A stretch of 43,550 bases of DNA, taken from IMG/VR virus record IMGVR_UViG_3300044713_000031, positions 1 through 43,550 of that record. One strand, written 5' to 3'. A program made the position numbers and the translations under genes. Positions 211 through 43,477 of this stretch are shown piece by piece (the stretch's first letter is position 1; every line of letters starts with the position of its first letter). The notes under the pieces are model-generated. The model had not been told where the DNA came from and ran no database searches. It worked only from the letters and a program-made list of their open reading frames with translations. This DNA comes from a virus.

Positions 211-1407
211 TCAAATCGAAGCACTAGAACCGCTCTCGTCATCCTTGCGGAGTTTCGAGAGTGCCGAGGCCGCTGCGGATAGCTGACGGGTCTCCAGGTG
301 CGTGTAGATGTCGGTCGTCTTAAGGTCACTGTGGCCGAGCCACTCCTTGACCACCTTGATGTCCACACCGGCCCGCAGGAGCCGACTGGCGCACGTATGG
401 CGCAGCGAGTGGATCACGCAGTCCCGGTGCTTCACCCCGGCCTTCTCCTTGGCCCTGGTCCATATGTCCTGAGCGCGCCGCTTGTCCAGGTCAGCGAACG
501 GGCCACCTGGAACCTGCTTGCACTTCTCAAACTCCTTGCGGCATTTTGGGGTCATTGGCACCGAGCGTGGCTTACCGGTCTTCAGCACCTCGGGGCGGAA
601 CAGCTCGATCATCCCTACGTCCGATCCCCTCGGCATCACCAGCTCCTCGTGTAACAGCCCCAGGGCTTCCCCTAGGCGCAACCCGGATTCCACCAGGACC
701 ACGAACAGTCGGTGATAGCGGTGGGCGTCCAGCTTGCGCGGAGGGCCTCCCTGTGGACCAGGGCGTTCATCGTCCAGGGTGAGGACGGCCTCGAAGATGG
801 CCTTCTCGTCGGCAGGGGGCATGAAGTATTGCCGTCCGCCCCGCTCAGCCACCTCTTTGACCTTCGGGAACGAGCCGGGCACACCCTTCCAGTCCGTTTG
901 TTCGAGCGCCACGTTGAACATACGGCGCAGGCAGGCGAGATGGCGATTGATCGTTGCACCGGCCAGTCCTGAGTCGGCCAGCTTCTCCGTGAGGTCTAGG
1001 ACATGCCGGGACTGGATAGACGCGAGCGGTGTATCTGCGCCGAGGATCGCCTCAATCGCTCGACACTTCACCGCGTAGTCCTCGCGGGACTTCAGGGCAC
1101 CCCAAATCGACCGGGACTTCAGGCAGACGTCAAAGGCTTGCTTGAGCGTCATGGCCTCGTCCGCACGAAGCGCGGCACGGGCCGATGGGCTGTCCTCGCC
1201 GCGCACCAGGGCGACCAGGGCGGCTTTCGAGATGCCCGGGTTGGCGGTCATCGCCGCGACCACGGCGTTCTCTTTGCTCTGAGCGAGGCCGAGGTTGCGG
1301 GTGCCGGTGGAAAGAACCTCACGGCGACCGCCGACCTGGACGCGCATCATGTAGTACCGACGATCAGGTGAGCCGGGTTTGACTGTTCCCTTCAGCTTGA
1401 GAGGCAT
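211..1407 (-). CDS. int: Tyrosine integrase
   Basis: A 398-aa site-specific recombinase that should integrate and excise the phage at tRNA-Leu. The catalytic set is visible: R244 in SGLRLGEALG, H333 and R336 in HSLRHTCASR, H359 in WLGHSDLKTTDIYTH, and nucleophile Y368. The region about 85-185 is a SAM-like core-binding domain, and the N-terminal 70 residues are a small arm-binding-type domain. The ATG at 1407 follows the site TGGAG at good spacing. A leftward terminator separates it from the MarR-like gene upstream. In the circular phage it is directly upstream of, and co-oriented with, the RNA polymerase gene across attP. Confidence 0.95.
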   Translation of the reverse strand: MPLKLKGTVKPGSPDRRYYMMRVQVGGRREVLSTGTRNLGLAQSKENAVVAAMTANPGISKAALVALVRGEDSPSARAALRADEAMTLKQAFDVCLKSRSIWGALKSREDYAVKCRAIEAILGADTPLASIQSRHVLDLTEKLADSGLAGATINRHLACLRRMFNVALEQTDWKGVPGSFPKVKEVAERGGRQYFMPPADEKAIFEAVLTLDDERPGPQGGPPRKLDAHRYHRLFVVLVESGLRLGEALGLLHEELVMPRGSDVGMIELFRPEVLKTGKPRSVPMTPKCRKEFEKCKQVPGGPFADLDKRRAQDIWTRAKEKAGVKHRDCVIHSLRHTCASRLLRAGVDIKVVKEWLGHSDLKTTDIYTHLETRQLSAAASALSKLRKDDESGSSASI

Positions 1408-2509: not shown

Positions 2510-2794
2510 ATGAAAAAAGTTAAAGATTCAAGCGTTACGTGGACGCGCTACTCGACTCACACCGGCCAGGAATACGGCCCGAGTTACGCGCGGGATGCCA
2601 CTGGTTCAATCGTTGGCAGCGTGTCGCAATGCGTGGGCGATAAAAGCCACATATGGATTTCCAACGTAAACCCTCAGCCCGGCATGGGCGGATTCAAGCG
2701 GTCTTGCCACGCGCCATCCGAGGAGCGCGCGAGGTATTACGTCGAGTGCTGGGCCAAGTACCATCAGAAGGCAGCAGTCCATAACGAAGGGTGA
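2510..2794 (+). CDS. Hypothetical protein, 94 aa
   Basis: The protein starts MKKVKDSSVTWTRY and is rich in Ser, Gly and aromatic residues. No known motif was recognised. The stop codon overlaps the start region of the SRAP gene, so the two are probably translationally coupled in one rightward accessory operon. No strong ribosome site is visible before 2510, so the start is uncertain. Confidence 0.55.
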   Translation: MKKVKDSSVTWTRYSTHTGQEYGPSYARDATGSIVGSVSQCVGDKSHIWISNVNPQPGMGGFKRSCHAPSEERARYYVECWAKYHQKAAVHNEG

Positions 2795-2799
2795 CAGCG

Positions 2800-3765
2800 A
2801 TGTGTTACTCGGCTCAGGTTTGGGCGGACTACCACCTATTCAGGAGGAAGTTCGGCTCCGATATCTCGATCACGGACTTCTACGAGGAGTTCTACAAGCG
2901 CAAGCGCCAGGGCAATTTGTTCCCGAAGGCGGCCGACATGGCGTTTGCGAATCCAAAGAACGACGAGGAACGCTGGATCAAGGCATTGATTGATGACCTC
3001 AACGCCCAAGCGGCCCACAAACAAGAGACAGAGCTATTTGAGCAGCGCACCCGATTGAACGAAGCGGAGCGCAAGCTAGAAAAGAAGATCACAAAGACAG
3101 CCACCGAAAGTAAGCGCATCGCTACCAACAGAATCGACCGCGCACTTGCGAAGCTCGATGATCTCAAGCGCAAAGAGCTGAAGCCTCGTGACACACGCAT
3201 CTTTCCCGACTGGTACGCGCCGGTTCTGTTTGTGGAGGACGGCAAGCTCAAGCTGCTGCCCATGCGTTACCACTGCCGCCCAGCAGGGATGCCGAAGTCA
3301 ATCGATCGCACGAAAGACGGCAAGGTCAGCGGCACGTACAACGCGCGCCGCGATAATCTCGAAAGGTTCTGGCGTAAACAGTTCGGTTACACACACGGTA
3401 TTGCCGTGGTGTCGTCGTTTTATGAGAACGTGTCCCGGCACATGAACGAGGGCAGGGAACTCAAACCGGGCGAGAAGGAGGAGAACCTCGTCCTCCACTT
3501 CAATCCCCAGCCGCCGCATGACATGTTCGTGGCGTGCCTATGGTCCTATTGGAAGGAAGGGGACGAAGACCTTTATTCGTTCGCGGCTATCACCGACGAG
3601 CCGCCGCCTGAGATTGCAGCGGCGGGGCATGATCGATGCATTATCCCGATCAAGGAGGAGAACATAGACGCGTGGCTCCGTCCTGATCCGAAGAACGTAG
3701 ACGCCATGTACGCGATCCTTGATGACCGCGACAGGCCGTTCTACGAGTACGAGATGGCTGCATAA
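2800..3765 (+). CDS. SRAP (HMCES/YedK-type) abasic-site protein
   Basis: A 321-aa SOS response-associated peptidase-family protein. SRAP proteins crosslink to abasic sites in single-stranded DNA through a cysteine exposed after removal of Met1. The ATG at 2800 is chosen over the GTG at 2791 because it gives MCYSAQ, with the obligatory Cys2. Other family landmarks are YNARRDNL (NAR motif), SSFYEN (FYEW-like, with the Glu), TDEPPPE and GHDRCIIPI (active-site His). An insert of about 100 lysine/glutamate-rich residues near 70-130 forms a likely coiled coil absent from short bacterial YedK. The gene lies in the rightward block with the SieB-like gene. Confidence 0.85.
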   Translation: MCYSAQVWADYHLFRRKFGSDISITDFYEEFYKRKRQGNLFPKAADMAFANPKNDEERWIKALIDDLNAQAAHKQETELFEQRTRLNEAERKLEKKITKTATESKRIATNRIDRALAKLDDLKRKELKPRDTRIFPDWYAPVLFVEDGKLKLLPMRYHCRPAGMPKSIDRTKDGKVSGTYNARRDNLERFWRKQFGYTHGIAVVSSFYENVSRHMNEGRELKPGEKEENLVLHFNPQPPHDMFVACLWSYWKEGDEDLYSFAAITDEPPPEIAAAGHDRCIIPIKEENIDAWLRPDPKNVDAMYAILDDRDRPFYEYEMAA

Positions 3766-26890: not shown

Positions 26891-27844
26891 TTACGTAGTC
26901 AACTTTGCCGCGATCTCGACTGCCCCAGCCACACGGAGCCAGCCGTGGCCCAAGGCGAACTTGGACAGCATCAGGGTGCCCTGACGACGAACGTCATAGG
27001 CGTCCTCGACTGCGAGGTCCAGCAGCTTCAGAGTGCCCACTGCGGACTTGTGGAACACGACGCCAGCCGTCTTGCTGTAGTCAGCGCGATAGCGAGCCTG
27101 GATCTTCGTGTTCGCCGTGTCGTCGGCGGTCGGCAGATGGTTGGTCTTCAGCAGCGGAATGCGAGCAATCGAATAGATCGTCGCCTGGGACAGCGAGCCG
27201 TTCACTTCCGGGTTGAAGTCGCGGTTCACCAAGTCCTTGACCTGAGTGAGCGCGTACCACAGCGCGGGCTTCACGACAGCAACGCAGTCCTCGTCGGGGA
27301 TGTTCTTCTCGTCGAACAACTGACGAGCCTGAAGCACCGCACCTGCGAACTTGGTCGCGTCCGTCAGCATCGCCGCATCGGCGATCACTGCACCGCCGTC
27401 CTGACCTTCCACCAAACCGGAGGTCTGACGAGCTGCCTGGATCGCACAACGCAGCTCATTGAGCTGACGCTGCTTCGCCAGTTCCAAGCCCTGCTGCTTG
27501 GTGTACTCACTACGCACATCGTAGTGGTTCATCGCTTCGTCGATGTTCGGAATGAACACGTGCGAGATCAGCATCGGATCGAGGTTAACGATCACCTCGT
27601 TGTGCTGAACGTTCAAGCCCGTAATTTCCGTTCCCGGTACGTGGTACTCAGAGCCGATGGTGCCGATTGCGGGGAACTGCGCGGACTTGCCGTGCGAGAT
27701 GTTGCGTTCGGTTACCTTACCAGCCAGCTTGTATTCGTCCTGGAACGATGCCAGAACTTCACCGCCGTACTGCTCCAGGAATAGCGCCTTGTCATCACCA
27801 GTGTTCTGCACCTGACCAAGACGATTCGGAGTAGCGTTTGCCAT
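26891..27844 (-). CDS. Major capsid protein (gp10-like)
   Basis: A 317-aa HK97-fold capsid protein (T7 gp10A is 345 aa). Typical segments are MANATPNRLGQVQNTGDDKA, FLEQYGGEVLASFQ, SAQFPAIGTIGSEYH, VIVNLDPMLISHVFI and a C-terminal VRRQGTLMLSKFALGHGWL. It follows the scaffold gene and is followed by the strong terminator. Confidence 0.95.
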   Translation of the reverse strand: MANATPNRLGQVQNTGDDKALFLEQYGGEVLASFQDEYKLAGKVTERNISHGKSAQFPAIGTIGSEYHVPGTEITGLNVQHNEVIVNLDPMLISHVFIPNIDEAMNHYDVRSEYTKQQGLELAKQRQLNELRCAIQAARQTSGLVEGQDGGAVIADAAMLTDATKFAGAVLQARQLFDEKNIPDEDCVAVVKPALWYALTQVKDLVNRDFNPEVNGSLSQATIYSIARIPLLKTNHLPTADDTANTKIQARYRADYSKTAGVVFHKSAVGTLKLLDLAVEDAYDVRRQGTLMLSKFALGHGWLRVAGAVEIAAKLTT

Positions 27845-28683: not shown

Positions 28684-28836
28684 TCAATTCACGAAGTTGT
28701 AGACGGTGAGGCCGTTCGGAAGCACAGACTTGTACTTCTCCAATGGGTCGATCTTTGGCTCACTCTTGGGCTTCGCCGGGGCGACCGTTTCTTTCTCGGT
28801 CACGTCCGGCGCTTTGTCACTCTTAGGTGGTGCCAT
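28684..28836 (-). CDS. Small protein between portal and scaffold, 50 aa
   Basis: The frame reads MAPPKSDKAPDVTEKETVAP, a Lys/Pro-rich stretch, then KYKSVLPNGLTVYNFVN. AAGGA stands 8 nt upstream of the ATG at 28836, and the start overlaps the portal end by 14 nt. Low-complexity N-terminus; function unknown. Confidence 0.65.
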   Translation of the reverse strand: MAPPKSDKAPDVTEKETVAPAKPKSEPKIDPLEKYKSVLPNGLTVYNFVN

Positions 28837-30382
28837 CAGGATTTCCTTGTTGCGCCATTGCGGCGCTTGCGATGTTGGGAGCCGCGCGAACTGCGGCTTG
28901 GTGCATGGTGTCAATCTGCGCTTCCTGCTGGAGCTGCTCGTCGGACTTGATGAGACCCTTCATGGAGATGTCGCTTGCAGCGCCGAGGCGTGCGAGGAAC
29001 TCGCCATCGTCAACGCGCTGTGCGAAGACCTGCGGGCCGAGTGCTTGCGTTGCGGCCTGTGCCCACTCCATGAGTTTCTGCATGTCTTGTCCGCGACCAA
29101 GCGCGGCCATGCCGACAACTACACGGGGCTTAATGACACCCTTGGGTAACTCGGGGAGCTGATGTGTGCGCGTCAGTCGGTCGAGGATTCGACGGACCAT
29201 GGGCAGCAACAGGTCTTCCGCAAGGATCGAGTAGATGCCACCGAGGACGTCTTCCAGCTCTTGAGCCAGATAACGAATTTCCTCAGCGGTCACACGCTCA
29301 CCGCTACGCTGAATTGCCGTGCGTACGCCGAACACGAGTTCGAGTCGCTGGCTCAACTTGTCCATCACGTTCGTGACGAAGTTAAAGTCCGCGTACTTGT
29401 CCTGCGAAACAGCCTTCAAGTCTTCCGGGTTCATCCGCAGAACATCGCCGGATTCGGCTTGAGTGATGTCCTTCGGACGTGCCTCGGAGTTCTGCTTCAG
29501 TGTCCACAGTACCTTCGCAGCAGCAGCGGCACCCTTCAGGATCGCCTTGCTGAGCTTCTCCAGTGCGTCAAAGTCACCGAAGTATTCGTACACCAGCCCA
29601 GCGCCGTAGTCCTCAGCATCTTCCTCGGGGATACGCAGGGGAATCCAGGGGCATGAGTCGATGGGATAGGAACCATCGCTACCCGGCACGATGACCGAGT
29701 TCACCTCCTGGTAAACCTGCCAGAGATCACCGTCGCGGTAGATACGCGTGTAGAGGTCGATGTTTTGCTCGGGGCCGTCGTCCTTCTTCTTCTGATCCAG
29801 GCCCAGGTGCGATTGCATCTCAGGTGACAGCGTAGAAGGAGCAACGCTATCGAGCGTCACGATCTCCAACACGGAACCCATGCCGTCACGATGGACGACG
29901 AAGCGGGTCAGTGGATAGACCTTGGCGTTCCCTTGGTCAGGGATATAGATGCAACAGTTGCCGGTTGTTACCAGGTGCTTCAGCGCGAGAGCCAATCGTC
30001 CACGCATGCCTGACGTTTCGATGTCATTGATGATGGTTCTCTCGATATCAGCGAGGCCCATCTCCAGGTCACCGAGCTGGATACCCGCCTGCTGTGCAAG
30101 CTGGGCCGCATCCATGCTGTCCGGGGACATCTTGAAGAAGCTGGCGTTCGGGGGGAACAGAGCCAGCAAAAGACGAGACGACAGGGAGTTGACGCATCGA
30201 GCGCCGGTGCCTTGGTACGGGGTAGTGCGCGTGACGCTGGTCTTACCCTTTGTCACCTGCTTATACAGCGTCGGCAGCGTGAGGTCCGCGCACTGCTTAG
30301 CCCGAGTCTCCGCATTGTTGCGGTCGGTCTTCAGTGCGTTGTATCGGACTTCGGCTGAGACGGAGTTGTCCGTCTTGCTCAA
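28823..30382 (-). CDS. Portal / head-tail connector (gp8-like)
   Basis: A 519-aa portal (T7 gp8 is 536 aa). RYNALKTDRNNAETRAKQCA with LTLPTLYKQ is the family N-terminus; SRLLLALFPPNASFFKM, VLEIVTLDSVAPSTL and RSGERVTAEEIRYLAQELE are further landmarks. The start is a TTG whose G overlaps the upstream stop (TTGA), so translation is coupled to the preceding 61-aa gene. Confidence 0.95.
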   Translation of the reverse strand: MSKTDNSVSAEVRYNALKTDRNNAETRAKQCADLTLPTLYKQVTKGKTSVTRTTPYQGTGARCVNSLSSRLLLALFPPNASFFKMSPDSMDAAQLAQQAGIQLGDLEMGLADIERTIINDIETSGMRGRLALALKHLVTTGNCCIYIPDQGNAKVYPLTRFVVHRDGMGSVLEIVTLDSVAPSTLSPEMQSHLGLDQKKKDDGPEQNIDLYTRIYRDGDLWQVYQEVNSVIVPGSDGSYPIDSCPWIPLRIPEEDAEDYGAGLVYEYFGDFDALEKLSKAILKGAAAAAKVLWTLKQNSEARPKDITQAESGDVLRMNPEDLKAVSQDKYADFNFVTNVMDKLSQRLELVFGVRTAIQRSGERVTAEEIRYLAQELEDVLGGIYSILAEDLLLPMVRRILDRLTRTHQLPELPKGVIKPRVVVGMAALGRGQDMQKLMEWAQAATQALGPQVFAQRVDDGEFLARLGAASDISMKGLIKSDEQLQQEAQIDTMHQAAVRAAPNIASAAMAQQGNPDGTT

Positions 30383-40646: not shown

Positions 40647-43073
40647 TTACGCAAAGAAATACGCGGACTGCTCCACCAGGGAGAGATCCAAATCGCCCGA
40701 AGGCGGGAGCGGGGGAAGGTCAGCAGCGATCTCCGAAGGGAGCTGTGCTGCCAGTTCATCGCGGAAGTCGGTAAGGACTTCGCGGCTGTACTGTTCAACG
40801 AAGGCGGCTCTCAATGATGCCGCCAGGAGGCCGGTGTTGGCCGCGTGGGTTCCGTAGCTGTCGTGGATCATGGCAAAGGACTCAACCCCGTTGTCCGTCG
40901 CCGTGCATGTAGTCAGCATCATGTGTGATGCATCGCAGGAGTGAACGAAGTTCGGAGAGATGCCGAGGGCCTGTCTGCGGCCATCGAGTTTTGTTCCTTC
41001 TACGTTCGCACTTATACGTGTTTGTCTACCGCCGACGTGAGCAACAATCTGTTCTGCAATGCTTTGTCTGTACTCCTGAAGCACCGGGAAACCGGCTGGG
41101 GTTGTCCAGCTCACCGGCATGTCACCGGATGCTGCAACCCTCGCAGCGGACTTCAGCCAGTCCATCGCTTCACGTGCGGCCACCACTACTAAACCGATGC
41201 AATCCCAAAGGACATCTGCTAGGTACTGCGCGACTTCCCATGAATCATCTTTGCCTTGCTTGCGCATCTCCTCAGATATCTGTCCCCGCATCCCGGACTT
41301 GGTGACGCCATAGGGCAGCGTCATCACCGGCCGCTTCACGATGCTGCGCGACAGTTGTCCGTCCCACTTTGCAGCGAGCGCATTGCCGCCTTCGGCTTCG
41401 CGCTTCACGCGATCCGCTGCGACGTTCATCACTTGTGTATAGATGTCAGCGGGCTTTTGCTGTGGCATCAGGTTGGTGGCAGCGCCGCCGATGGAATCCT
41501 TGAGCATGGCCGAGAAGTTCTGAAGGCCATTGCAGGAACCGTCGAGTGCAATGGGGAGGTGCGAGACGAAACTTTCGCCTTGTGCTTTGTAGCCAGCCCA
41601 TTCAAAGCAGGCGGCCAATGCGCTCCACGGTGAATCGGCTTCGGTCCAGAAGCGGTGACCGTCGAGGGGATCAATCGCGGAATCGAGGATGCGCTCCTCG
41701 TTCTCCATCACCCATTTAAGACGGTCAGCGAACGGCACCTTGTCCACGCCGAATACGTTGGCGAGGTGAATTGCCAGCCAGCGGACACCCTCCTCGCCCA
41801 ACGGCATGCCGTTGGCAAAGCACAGCAGGGACTTCGTTTGATCGTCACCCTGGGGATTCAAGGTTCCCGGTACGGGGTACACCCGGCCTCTGAAGTCCAG
41901 CGAGTGCGGGAAGTAGATGGCGTGTTCAGGCTCAAAGCGGCAAGCGAGGGCGATCGTCTGGGCCGCCGCGACCCTTTTAGATGTGGCACGAGCGTTCAGC
42001 TCATATACCTCCGCGCGCTTCCGCTTCCAAGCCTTGAACGCTTCGGGGTTCTCCTCCTTCCACCAGTCCATGCGATCCACCGACACCGGAAGACCGGGCA
42101 GGGGTTCCAGCTCGCGGCGCGGGAGATCGCCGATGCCACCACCGGCCTCCCAGGCTTCCCGCATAACAGCCAGGACGTTCGAGTTGATCTTCCAGGCGGT
42201 TGCCTGGATCGCGTTGAGGGCTTCATAGACCATAGGCATGTCCGCGTTGTCCAGCTCACGGAGGTAAGCCTTGTTCCGGGTGCGGACGATGGGGACCAGT
42301 CCGCCTGCGTCGGTCAGGTAGCCGCCCCCCTTTGATGCCTGCCAGGGCAGGGGTTGGACCAGCATGGGCATGCGGATGGGGGCGAAATGGGCCGCCGCGT
42401 CGTGGGCCTTGTCTAGCCAGTCCATGACCTCGGGGGTTCCACGGAGCAACGTGCGGCGCTTGTCCTGCCCGTGGCTCGTGTCCAGGTACAGGTGAGCGAA
42501 GCCAGTAGCTTCAATGAACAGCTCGACCATCTTCATCCCGAAGTGGATACCGTCGTGGCCGGGGAAGGCGAACTGTTCCAGCTCGGTACGGCGCATGGCC
42601 GCCGACAAGACGCTCTTGTTGTGACGCTGGGACGTACTCTTTTTGAGGACGCCCTGGAGGTGTTTATAGAGACCGGGGGATTCCTCGCGGAAACGCGAGT
42701 AATTAATGGAATCCTCTACCGCCGTGGCGATGGCCTCGGCAACGGTCTGCACGCGGGTGTCCTTTGACGTGATCGCGTTCAGGCAGTGGCGCACGGTCAG
42801 GTATGCCAGTTCAGTTGAGGGAAACTTCTCCACCCATCGGACGGCGGTGTGCTTCTTGCCGGGTTTGCCGTTGCGGGCTTCGGCAACAAATGCGTCGATG
42901 GCGGTAGCTACGGGACCGATGGTGTCCCGGATCAGGCGACGGCCAGGGCCGGAATCGGCTTCGTCTTGGCGGTCACGTTCTTTCTTATATCGGTCGATGC
43001 CAAGGGTCAGACTTTCTTCTTCGAGAGCGATCTGGCGGGTTCTGAGGTCGAGCGTGTTCTGCACGGTATCCAT
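40647..43073 (-). CDS. T7-type single-subunit RNA polymerase (gp1)
   Basis: An 808-aa polymerase (T7 is 883 aa) that should transcribe the phage middle and late genes. Catalytic motifs are present: LDGSCNGLQNFSAML (motif A; T7 D537), KRPVMTLPYGVTKSGM (motif B; T7 K631/Y639) and FVHSCDASHMML (motif C; T7 H811/D812), with MIHDSYGTHA; the C-terminus ends in YFFA, near T7's FAFA foot. Homology to T7 begins near the ATG at 43073 (GGAG upstream). An in-frame ATG at 43184 with a stronger AAGGAGG site would add 37 residues. Confidence 0.96.
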   Translation of the reverse strand: MDTVQNTLDLRTRQIALEEESLTLGIDRYKKERDRQDEADSGPGRRLIRDTIGPVATAIDAFVAEARNGKPGKKHTAVRWVEKFPSTELAYLTVRHCLNAITSKDTRVQTVAEAIATAVEDSINYSRFREESPGLYKHLQGVLKKSTSQRHNKSVLSAAMRRTELEQFAFPGHDGIHFGMKMVELFIEATGFAHLYLDTSHGQDKRRTLLRGTPEVMDWLDKAHDAAAHFAPIRMPMLVQPLPWQASKGGGYLTDAGGLVPIVRTRNKAYLRELDNADMPMVYEALNAIQATAWKINSNVLAVMREAWEAGGGIGDLPRRELEPLPGLPVSVDRMDWWKEENPEAFKAWKRKRAEVYELNARATSKRVAAAQTIALACRFEPEHAIYFPHSLDFRGRVYPVPGTLNPQGDDQTKSLLCFANGMPLGEEGVRWLAIHLANVFGVDKVPFADRLKWVMENEERILDSAIDPLDGHRFWTEADSPWSALAACFEWAGYKAQGESFVSHLPIALDGSCNGLQNFSAMLKDSIGGAATNLMPQQKPADIYTQVMNVAADRVKREAEGGNALAAKWDGQLSRSIVKRPVMTLPYGVTKSGMRGQISEEMRKQGKDDSWEVAQYLADVLWDCIGLVVVAAREAMDWLKSAARVAASGDMPVSWTTPAGFPVLQEYRQSIAEQIVAHVGGRQTRISANVEGTKLDGRRQALGISPNFVHSCDASHMMLTTCTATDNGVESFAMIHDSYGTHAANTGLLAASLRAAFVEQYSREVLTDFRDELAAQLPSEIAADLPPLPPSGDLDLSLVEQSAYFFA

Positions 43074-43083
43074 GCGTTCTCCA

Positions 43084-43115
43084 GAAAAAGAAAAGGCCCC
43101 CTTTCGGGAGCCTTT
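43084..43115 (-). terminator. Terminator-like hairpin in the RNA polymerase leader
   Basis: Read leftward, AAAGGCTCCC-GAAA-GGGGGCCTTT (43115-43092) is a 10-bp stem (one G-T pair) with a GAAA tetraloop, followed by TCTTTTTC. It ends about 10 nt before the GGAG/ATG of the 43073 start and lies inside the frame opened at 43184, so transcription, translation and termination compete here. Confidence 0.7.
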
Positions 43116-43218
43116 GAAGTCAGTAGATAGAGATGAGTGAGGGGTGCCAGGGCACCTATAAACAGAGAACTCTGAGGAGATCATCAGGGCCTCCTTAGGA
43201 AGGCCTTTAGATAATCTT

Positions 43219-43257
43219 TAGGGGGTCACTATCGTTCCCCCTAGGTACGCACTTTTA
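43219..43257 (-). promoter_or_regulatory. Phage RNAP promoter with 5' hairpin, upstream of RNAP
   Basis: Read leftward, TAAAAGTGCGTACCTA (43257-43242) is followed by GGGGG at the presumed +1 (43241). TAGGGGG (43243-43237) and CCCCCTA (43225-43219) form a 7-bp stem at the 5' end of the transcript. It matches the late promoter at 31257-31272 in sequence and in starting a hairpin, so the polymerase may transcribe its own gene. Confidence 0.65.
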
Positions 43258-43267
43258 TCCAGTTCGC

Positions 43268-43317
43268 GGCACCTGCCGGAACCTCGCGGCACCTGCGGCA
43301 CCTGGGAATGGCACCTG
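43268..43317 (+). repeat. Four direct copies of GGCACCTG near attR
   Basis: Copies start at 43268, 43288, 43297 and 43310, with a diverged fifth (GGCACCGG, 43322). Spacing is 20, 9 and 13 bp. They lie 100-150 bp inside the prophage end, a suitable place for integrase arm-type sites, or for a regulator of RNAP. No such copies are seen beside attL. Confidence 0.55.
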
Positions 43318-43391
43318 TGGCGGCACCGGGTCTAAACTGCGTTGGCATGGCTCTGTGGAATTGCTAGACTTAGCGGCTATTTAAGGTCTGG

Positions 43392-43477
43392 GCGAGAGTG
43401 GCGGAATTGGCAGACGCACCAGTTTTAGGTTCCAGCGGGTAACCCCCGTAAGGGTTCGAGTCCCTTCTTTCGCACCA
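43392..43477 (+). tRNA. tRNA-Leu(UAG)-like hybrid at attR, anticodon stem broken
   Basis: An 86-nt tRNA-like sequence with anticodon UAG and CCA. The acceptor stem GCGAGAG/CTTTCGC pairs with one G-T. The 3' 54 nt equal attL, but the 5' part differs from the left copy (acceptor, D loop, anticodon stem). The anticodon stem is CCAGT against TCCAG, leaving three of five pairs mismatched, so it is probably not functional. The 5' half appears to come from the phage attP and to derive from a different tRNA-Leu (CCAGT needs ACTGG). Confidence 0.75.
43424..43477 (+). repeat. attR: attR core, 54-bp direct repeat
   Basis: Identical to 74..127. Beyond it the sequence becomes very GC-rich (gccgccgcggcgcc), which is taken as bacterial flank. 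Confidence 0.92.

Follow-up and report, generated by a model that had tools for sequence, protein, structure and literature searches.

How a temperate phage silences a self-amplifying, T7-type RNA polymerase (RNAP) is the question raised by this locus, and an excerpt of the paper describing phage LUZ100 states that the RNAP's own promoter 'raises questions' (PMC10134795). The stretch of DNA analysed here, which we call the window, comprises all 43,550 bases of the IMG/VR virus record IMGVR_UViG_3300044713_000031, and from its gene content it reads as an integrated prophage of a temperate T7-like (Autographiviridae-type) phage. The features that bear on this reading are the following:

42-127, left end: tRNA-Leu, called by ARAGORN
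211-1407, minus strand: tyrosine integrase (Pfam Phage_integrase, 1.3e-21)
26884-26855, minus strand: predicted terminator immediately behind the major capsid gene, where T7 has T-phi
26891-27844: major capsid gene
28823-30382: head-tail adaptor, downstream of predicted promoter B
40647-43073, minus strand: T7-like single-subunit RNAP, with the Shine-Dalgarno sequence GGAG at 43082-43079
43268-43327, minus strand: five GGTGCC repeats, between att and predicted promoter A
43392-43477, plus strand: copy of the tRNA-Leu on the attR side, 94% identical to 42-127

The tyrosine integrase adjoins the tRNA att site, the replication genes in the window are of the T7 type (SSB, primase-helicase and a family A DNA polymerase), and T7-type head genes were found as well. 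The tRNA-Leu copy at 43392-43477 was not reported as a tRNA by ARAGORN. The GGTGCC repeats may be integrase arm sites or repressor operators; similar GGTGCC/GGTGAC arrays occur in most relatives with an att site and are absent in L004 (L-numbers denote the relatives' RNAP loci). The integrase is preceded by a predicted hairpin terminator at 1451-1429, 21 nt ahead of its start, with a terminator-TTTCTGG layout and a TTTCGTTTCTGG tail as in the RNAP leader, and the accessory region carries an SRAP-family gene (SOS response associated peptidase) at 2791-3765 on the plus strand. A MarR-like regulator upstream of the integrase was considered and rejected, the only match being to a PHROG transcriptional regulator at 5e-5, with no Pfam match.

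The RNAP product, with its translation taken from 43184, matches the Pfam families RNA_pol (9e-124) and RPOL_N and is thus of the single-subunit, T7-like kind. The first-pass annotation had proposed two in-frame starts for this gene, and both sites exist: the ATG at 43184-43182 follows TAAGGAGG (with AAGGAGG at 43196-43190) and lies 111 nt, or 37 codons without a stop, ahead of the ATG at 43073, which has the GGAG listed above. The methionine at the 43073 position is the first residue in all ten aligned RNAP homologues, and we therefore place the RNAP start there. Among 50,697 records of isolated phages, no RNAP more than 60% identical to that of the window was found, the best among the matches listed being 43.6% identical. 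Relatives at 74-84% identity were found in metagenomes as well as in genomes of Dyella and Rhodanobacter. Searching more widely around the Dyella genome gave matches in 4 of 398 genomes from its order and in 4 of 233 from its family, with few new loci, and a DNA-pattern search of viral contigs for more relatives returned no loci beyond the set already collected.

The leader of the RNAP gene, together with two further sites that resemble its promoter, contains the following predicted elements:

43257-43235, minus strand: phage promoter A (positions -16 to +7), 0 mismatches, aligned in eight leaders, predicted transcription start 43241
43219-43243, minus strand: leader hairpin 1, TAGGGGG...CCCCCTA, at the transcript's predicted 5' end, predicted by folding
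43178-43217, minus strand: leader hairpin 2, containing AAGGAGG (43196-43190) and ATG 43184, predicted by folding
43143-43156, minus strand: degraded remnant of leader terminator 1, GGTGCCCTGGCACC without a T-run, from the eight-leader alignment
43115-43084, minus strand: leader terminator 2, with a 10-bp stem, a GAAA loop and a U-tract
41016-40994, minus strand: phage promoter C, inside the RNAP coding sequence, 2 mismatches, predicted transcription start 41000
31272-31250, minus strand: phage promoter B, before the structural genes and followed by a 5' hairpin

The hairpin that had been described between the two ATGs is terminator 2, which reads AAAGGCTCCC-GAAA-GGGGGCCTTT at 43115-43092, continues into TCTTTTTC and stands 18 nt ahead of the RNAP start at 43073. 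A GC-rich stem followed by a U-tract is the form of an intrinsic terminator, and the predicted fold has an energy of -17.6 kcal/mol (z -3.55). Two tandem terminators are present in seven of the eight aligned leaders, with terminator 1 degraded in the window alone, and the GAAA loop of terminator 2 is not kept across the eight. Hairpin 1 has a counterpart after promoter B.

The conservation of this arrangement was assessed in a set of 90 leaders (89 loci plus the window; 66 after redundancy removal), counting any predicted terminator that ends no more than 60 nt from the RNAP start. Such a terminator is present in 49 of the 90 leaders of the full set and, 1-60 nt ahead of the RNAP start, in 30 of the 66 non-redundant leaders. 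Dinucleotide-shuffled leaders gave a mean of 0.6 of 66 and a maximum of 3 over 40 rounds, so the chance of such a site in a leader is about 1%. By the scoring rule, 36 of the 66 lack a terminator, and strong hairpins with an interrupted T-run, as in L012, L030 and L032, are not scored. Among close relatives, 13 of 15 leaders have a terminator by the rule, the exceptions (L012 and L074) having strong hairpins with a broken or weak T-run. Stem sequences vary among the Dyella, Rhodanobacter, Xanthomonas, Coralloluteibacterium and Methylovorus loci, and the distance to the RNAP start is kept, at 19-44 nt for most. Across six prophages, a terminator at the gene start was found for 6 of 220 gene calls at a stricter score, and three of those six are RNAP genes; the integrase of the window is also among the gene calls with a terminator ahead of the start, and the RNAP of the window is left out of this count because the gene caller picked a different start. 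No terminator was found in this 60-nt range in any of 11 isolated T7-like phages; in LUZ100, jiawei, CRP-113, RHEph01, ProddE and CRP-227, one lies 94-351 nt upstream of the RNAP.

The first-pass annotation had also placed a phage promoter upstream of the leader, and the sequence in question, TAAAAGTGCGTACCTAGGGGGAA at 43257-43235, does recur elsewhere in the window. The pattern TAAAA-N10-RGGRGGAA, allowing at most 2 mismatches, is matched in all 11 clade records searched, 2 to 6 times each, as opposed to 0-3 times for the reversed pattern used as a control. In T7, bases -11 to -7 form the specificity element of the promoter, according to the part of the source available (PMC10138996). Promoters A, B and C of the window share GTGCG at these positions, as opposed to CAACC in L006 and ACACA in L007, and recurrent sites with a shared specificity element within one genome make up a putative phage-RNAP promoter set. 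For the seven phages with full sets, the A, B and C spacers agree within a phage at 122 of 147 positions, where permutations give a mean of 68 (p 5e-5). L004 is an exception, with an A spacer (CACGC) unlike its own B (CAGGG) and C (CAGTG). Sites A, C and B were also located in four named prophages, those of Dyella, Xanthomonas arboricola, Stenotrophomonas sepilia and Coralloluteibacterium, which are the ones searched with a site-A sequence, and each has its own set differing in sequence from the others. Judged from these regularities, A, B and C would act as promoters.

Promoter C lies within the RNAP gene and encodes RISANVEGT, residues 686-694 of the window RNAP, which correspond to T7 758-767 in an alignment to T7 RNAP, and the specificity loop of T7 RNAP spans residues 739-770 according to an excerpt of the source (PMC4411677). 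In 20 of the 85 loci tested, the loop DNA is a better match to the phage's own leader than any of the roughly 78 remaining segments of that gene, a count that includes L074, although its match does not resemble the promoter; all 20 belong to the window's clade. Among isolated phages, with CRP-227 left out, the match was found in none of 10. Of 800 windows compared across 15 sequences at least 74% identical, codons 686-694 rank 1 for excess synonymous identity (0.49, versus a mean of 0.12 and a standard deviation of 0.083), and they still rank 1 in 13 sequences with near-duplicates removed; when the set is widened to 33 sequences with identities as low as 54%, they rank 40 of 800. We read promoter C as a functional element because the need to encode the loop does not explain codons that copy the promoter. 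The loop residues encoded at 40994-41016 vary between phages as the promoter does.

Taken together, we propose, with a probability of roughly 0.55, that the leader terminator both brakes and insulates an autocatalytic RNAP gene, and that promoter C serves the downstream genes free of this brake. The position and conservation of the terminator, the promoter sets and the constraint at promoter C are the sequence evidence pointing to this model, and from these we infer promoter activity, termination by either polymerase and an effect on lysogeny. Promoter A would transcribe the RNAP gene and thereby set up a self-amplifying loop, and terminator 2, in tandem with terminator 1 in most close relatives, lies downstream of promoter A and ahead of the ribosome-binding site of the RNAP. 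In the lysogen, the leader terminator would halt most host-RNAP read-through from the flanking host DNA, so that leakage, as we propose, would not fire the loop; it would also let through only a fraction of the transcripts made by the phage RNAP itself and would thus limit self-amplification. In the excised circle, whose order is deduced, integrase transcription would cross attP toward the RNAP leader, and the leader terminator would halt host-RNAP read-through from the integrase operon; integration would cut that path. Promoter C, lying past the terminator in the 3' part of the RNAP gene, would drive downstream genes without the brake.

In T7, T-phi is a partial hairpin terminator located after the capsid gene, and the hairpin after the window's capsid gene (26884-26855) suggests that its RNAP, too, meets hairpin terminators late. 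Phage RNAPs terminate at intrinsic hairpins, per an excerpt of one source (PMC11347151), and the accessible part of another gives an in vivo efficiency of 62% for the native T7 terminator and 98% for tandem hairpins, with two of three engineered hairpins stopping E. coli RNAP at about 99% (PMC9157156). By analogy, host RNAP should stop almost fully at the leader terminator, and a T7-type RNAP should partly read through. No sigma70-like site was found on the minus strand of the leader, and the brake model does not explain the origin of the first RNAP; for LUZ100, the authors propose a start by read-through plus positive feedback, according to an excerpt of their paper (PMC10134795). A further proposal is that in this clade a working promoter in the loop codons makes the lock (the promoter element) and the key (the loop) one DNA, inherited jointly on a change of specificity, with the RNAP throttled by a terminator behind its own promoter; we offer it tentatively, with the odds leaning somewhat against it. 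It is speculative to suppose that selection placed promoter C there so that lock and key stay joined.

Several other explanations of the leader were weighed against this braked loop. The first-pass annotation had suggested that the polymerase attenuates its own synthesis, with ribosomes starting at 43184 making a longer RNAP and blocking termination. The first half survives, in that a predicted terminator separates the RNAP gene from a phage promoter, which makes self-attenuation possible, but the control by ribosomes does not. The window does have a perfect AAGGAGG and an in-frame ATG; a stop-free run of 37 codons, however, has a probability of 0.19 at this composition, so the open frame alone is unremarkable, and a Shine-Dalgarno sequence accompanies an in-frame upstream start in just 1 of the 49 terminator-bearing leaders, that of the window, the combination being absent in all relatives examined. 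Among these 49, an in-frame ATG, GTG or TTG upstream of the hairpin is found in 7 and an in-frame stop between the hairpin and the RNAP start in 15. Six of seven relatives lack a leader ATG altogether, and the sole one in L024 falls inside the promoter. The AAGGAGG itself arises within the leader's CTAAAG/CTAAGG repeat, of which the CTAAGG form is present in 5 of 8 leaders (window, L003, L004, L024 and L059) and at least one of the two forms in all 8. The start at 43184 also sits in a predicted stable hairpin, its Shine-Dalgarno sequence and AUG being paired with mean probabilities of 0.85 and 1.0 in the predicted leader RNA; the corresponding elements of 43073 are paired likewise (0.89 and 1.0), so folding alone does not discriminate between the starts. 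An upstream frame overlapping the terminator, which a leader-peptide attenuator would conserve, is present in the window only. Translation-controlled attenuation was rejected on this conservation across the 49 leaders, and ribosome entry at 43184 has, in our view, scarcely any chance of being the explanation.

A purely insulating terminator, which blocks host-RNAP read-through while the phage RNAP passes almost freely, would suit a prophage integrated beside host DNA, and T7 RNAP is prone to read-through where E. coli RNAP is stopped by engineered hairpins with an efficiency of about 99%, as the excerpted hairpin data have it. An insulator should, however, stand ahead of promoter A, the arrangement seen in LUZ100 (181 nt) and jiawei (102 nt), and here it is downstream; L004, moreover, retains both terminators with no tRNA att copy seen in the leader stretch examined, and we consider this account unlikely. 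It is distinctly improbable that the terminator is instead the 3' end of an upstream operon, abutting the RNAP gene by chance. In L006, L007, L008 and L011 an extra gene (at 1579-2445 in L007, where it is presumably KilA-N-like) ends directly before the leader terminator, which there could serve that gene, and T4 of LUZ100 comes after the integrase; the A-type site is located further upstream in L006, L008 and L011. The window's group, however, has no gene between promoter A and the terminator, and the terminator holds its place with respect to the RNAP start despite very different upstream contexts. Also conceivable, but more doubtful still, is a riboregulated switch in which hairpin 1 relieves termination by pairing with the 5' arm of terminator 1. 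GGGGAAC of hairpin 1 can base-pair with GUUCCCC of terminator 1, and by duplex energies the L058 and L059 pairs, altered on both sides, prefer each other; yet in the other five leaders cognate pairing brings no advantage over non-cognate pairing, terminator 1 is degraded in the window, and the support amounts to essentially one covariation event.

A terminator behind a self-promoter would be a concrete, testable brake on the self-amplifying polymerase, and a promoter within the specificity-loop codons would be a record of phage RNAPs changing promoter specificity with their promoters retained. The clade also supplies several RNAP-promoter sets with distinct -11 to -7 elements. In the open-access literature, we found no report of a terminator between a phage promoter and the RNAP gene in such phages, nor of a promoter in RNAP loop codons.

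Among known systems, the temperate-type T7-like Pseudomonas phage LUZ100 has, by the available part of its description, the same order of regulator, integrase, terminator, phage promoter and RNAP as the window's phage, and its RNAP is transcribed from its own promoter (PMC10134795). In contrast to the window, the annotated terminator T4 precedes promoter phi1, the last 60 nt before the RNAP start hold no terminator, the loop coding has no promoter match, and the RNAP is about 40% identical to that of the window. Caulobacter phage S2B and Mycobacterium phage jiawei, the closest isolated relatives by RNAP among the matches listed (43-44%), likewise have the integrase followed by the RNAP, but neither has an embedded promoter signal; in jiawei the terminator is 102 nt upstream, above a site that is promoter-like by inspection, and in S2B no terminator is scored. 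T7 gene 1 similarly encodes a single-subunit RNAP with a promoter carrying a -11 to -7 specificity element, but it has no terminator within 60 nt and its loop DNA has no leader match. The engineered T7 autogene, in which the RNAP is placed behind its own promoter, is a positive feedback loop; the window's loop would be a natural one, with its leader terminator as a possible brake.
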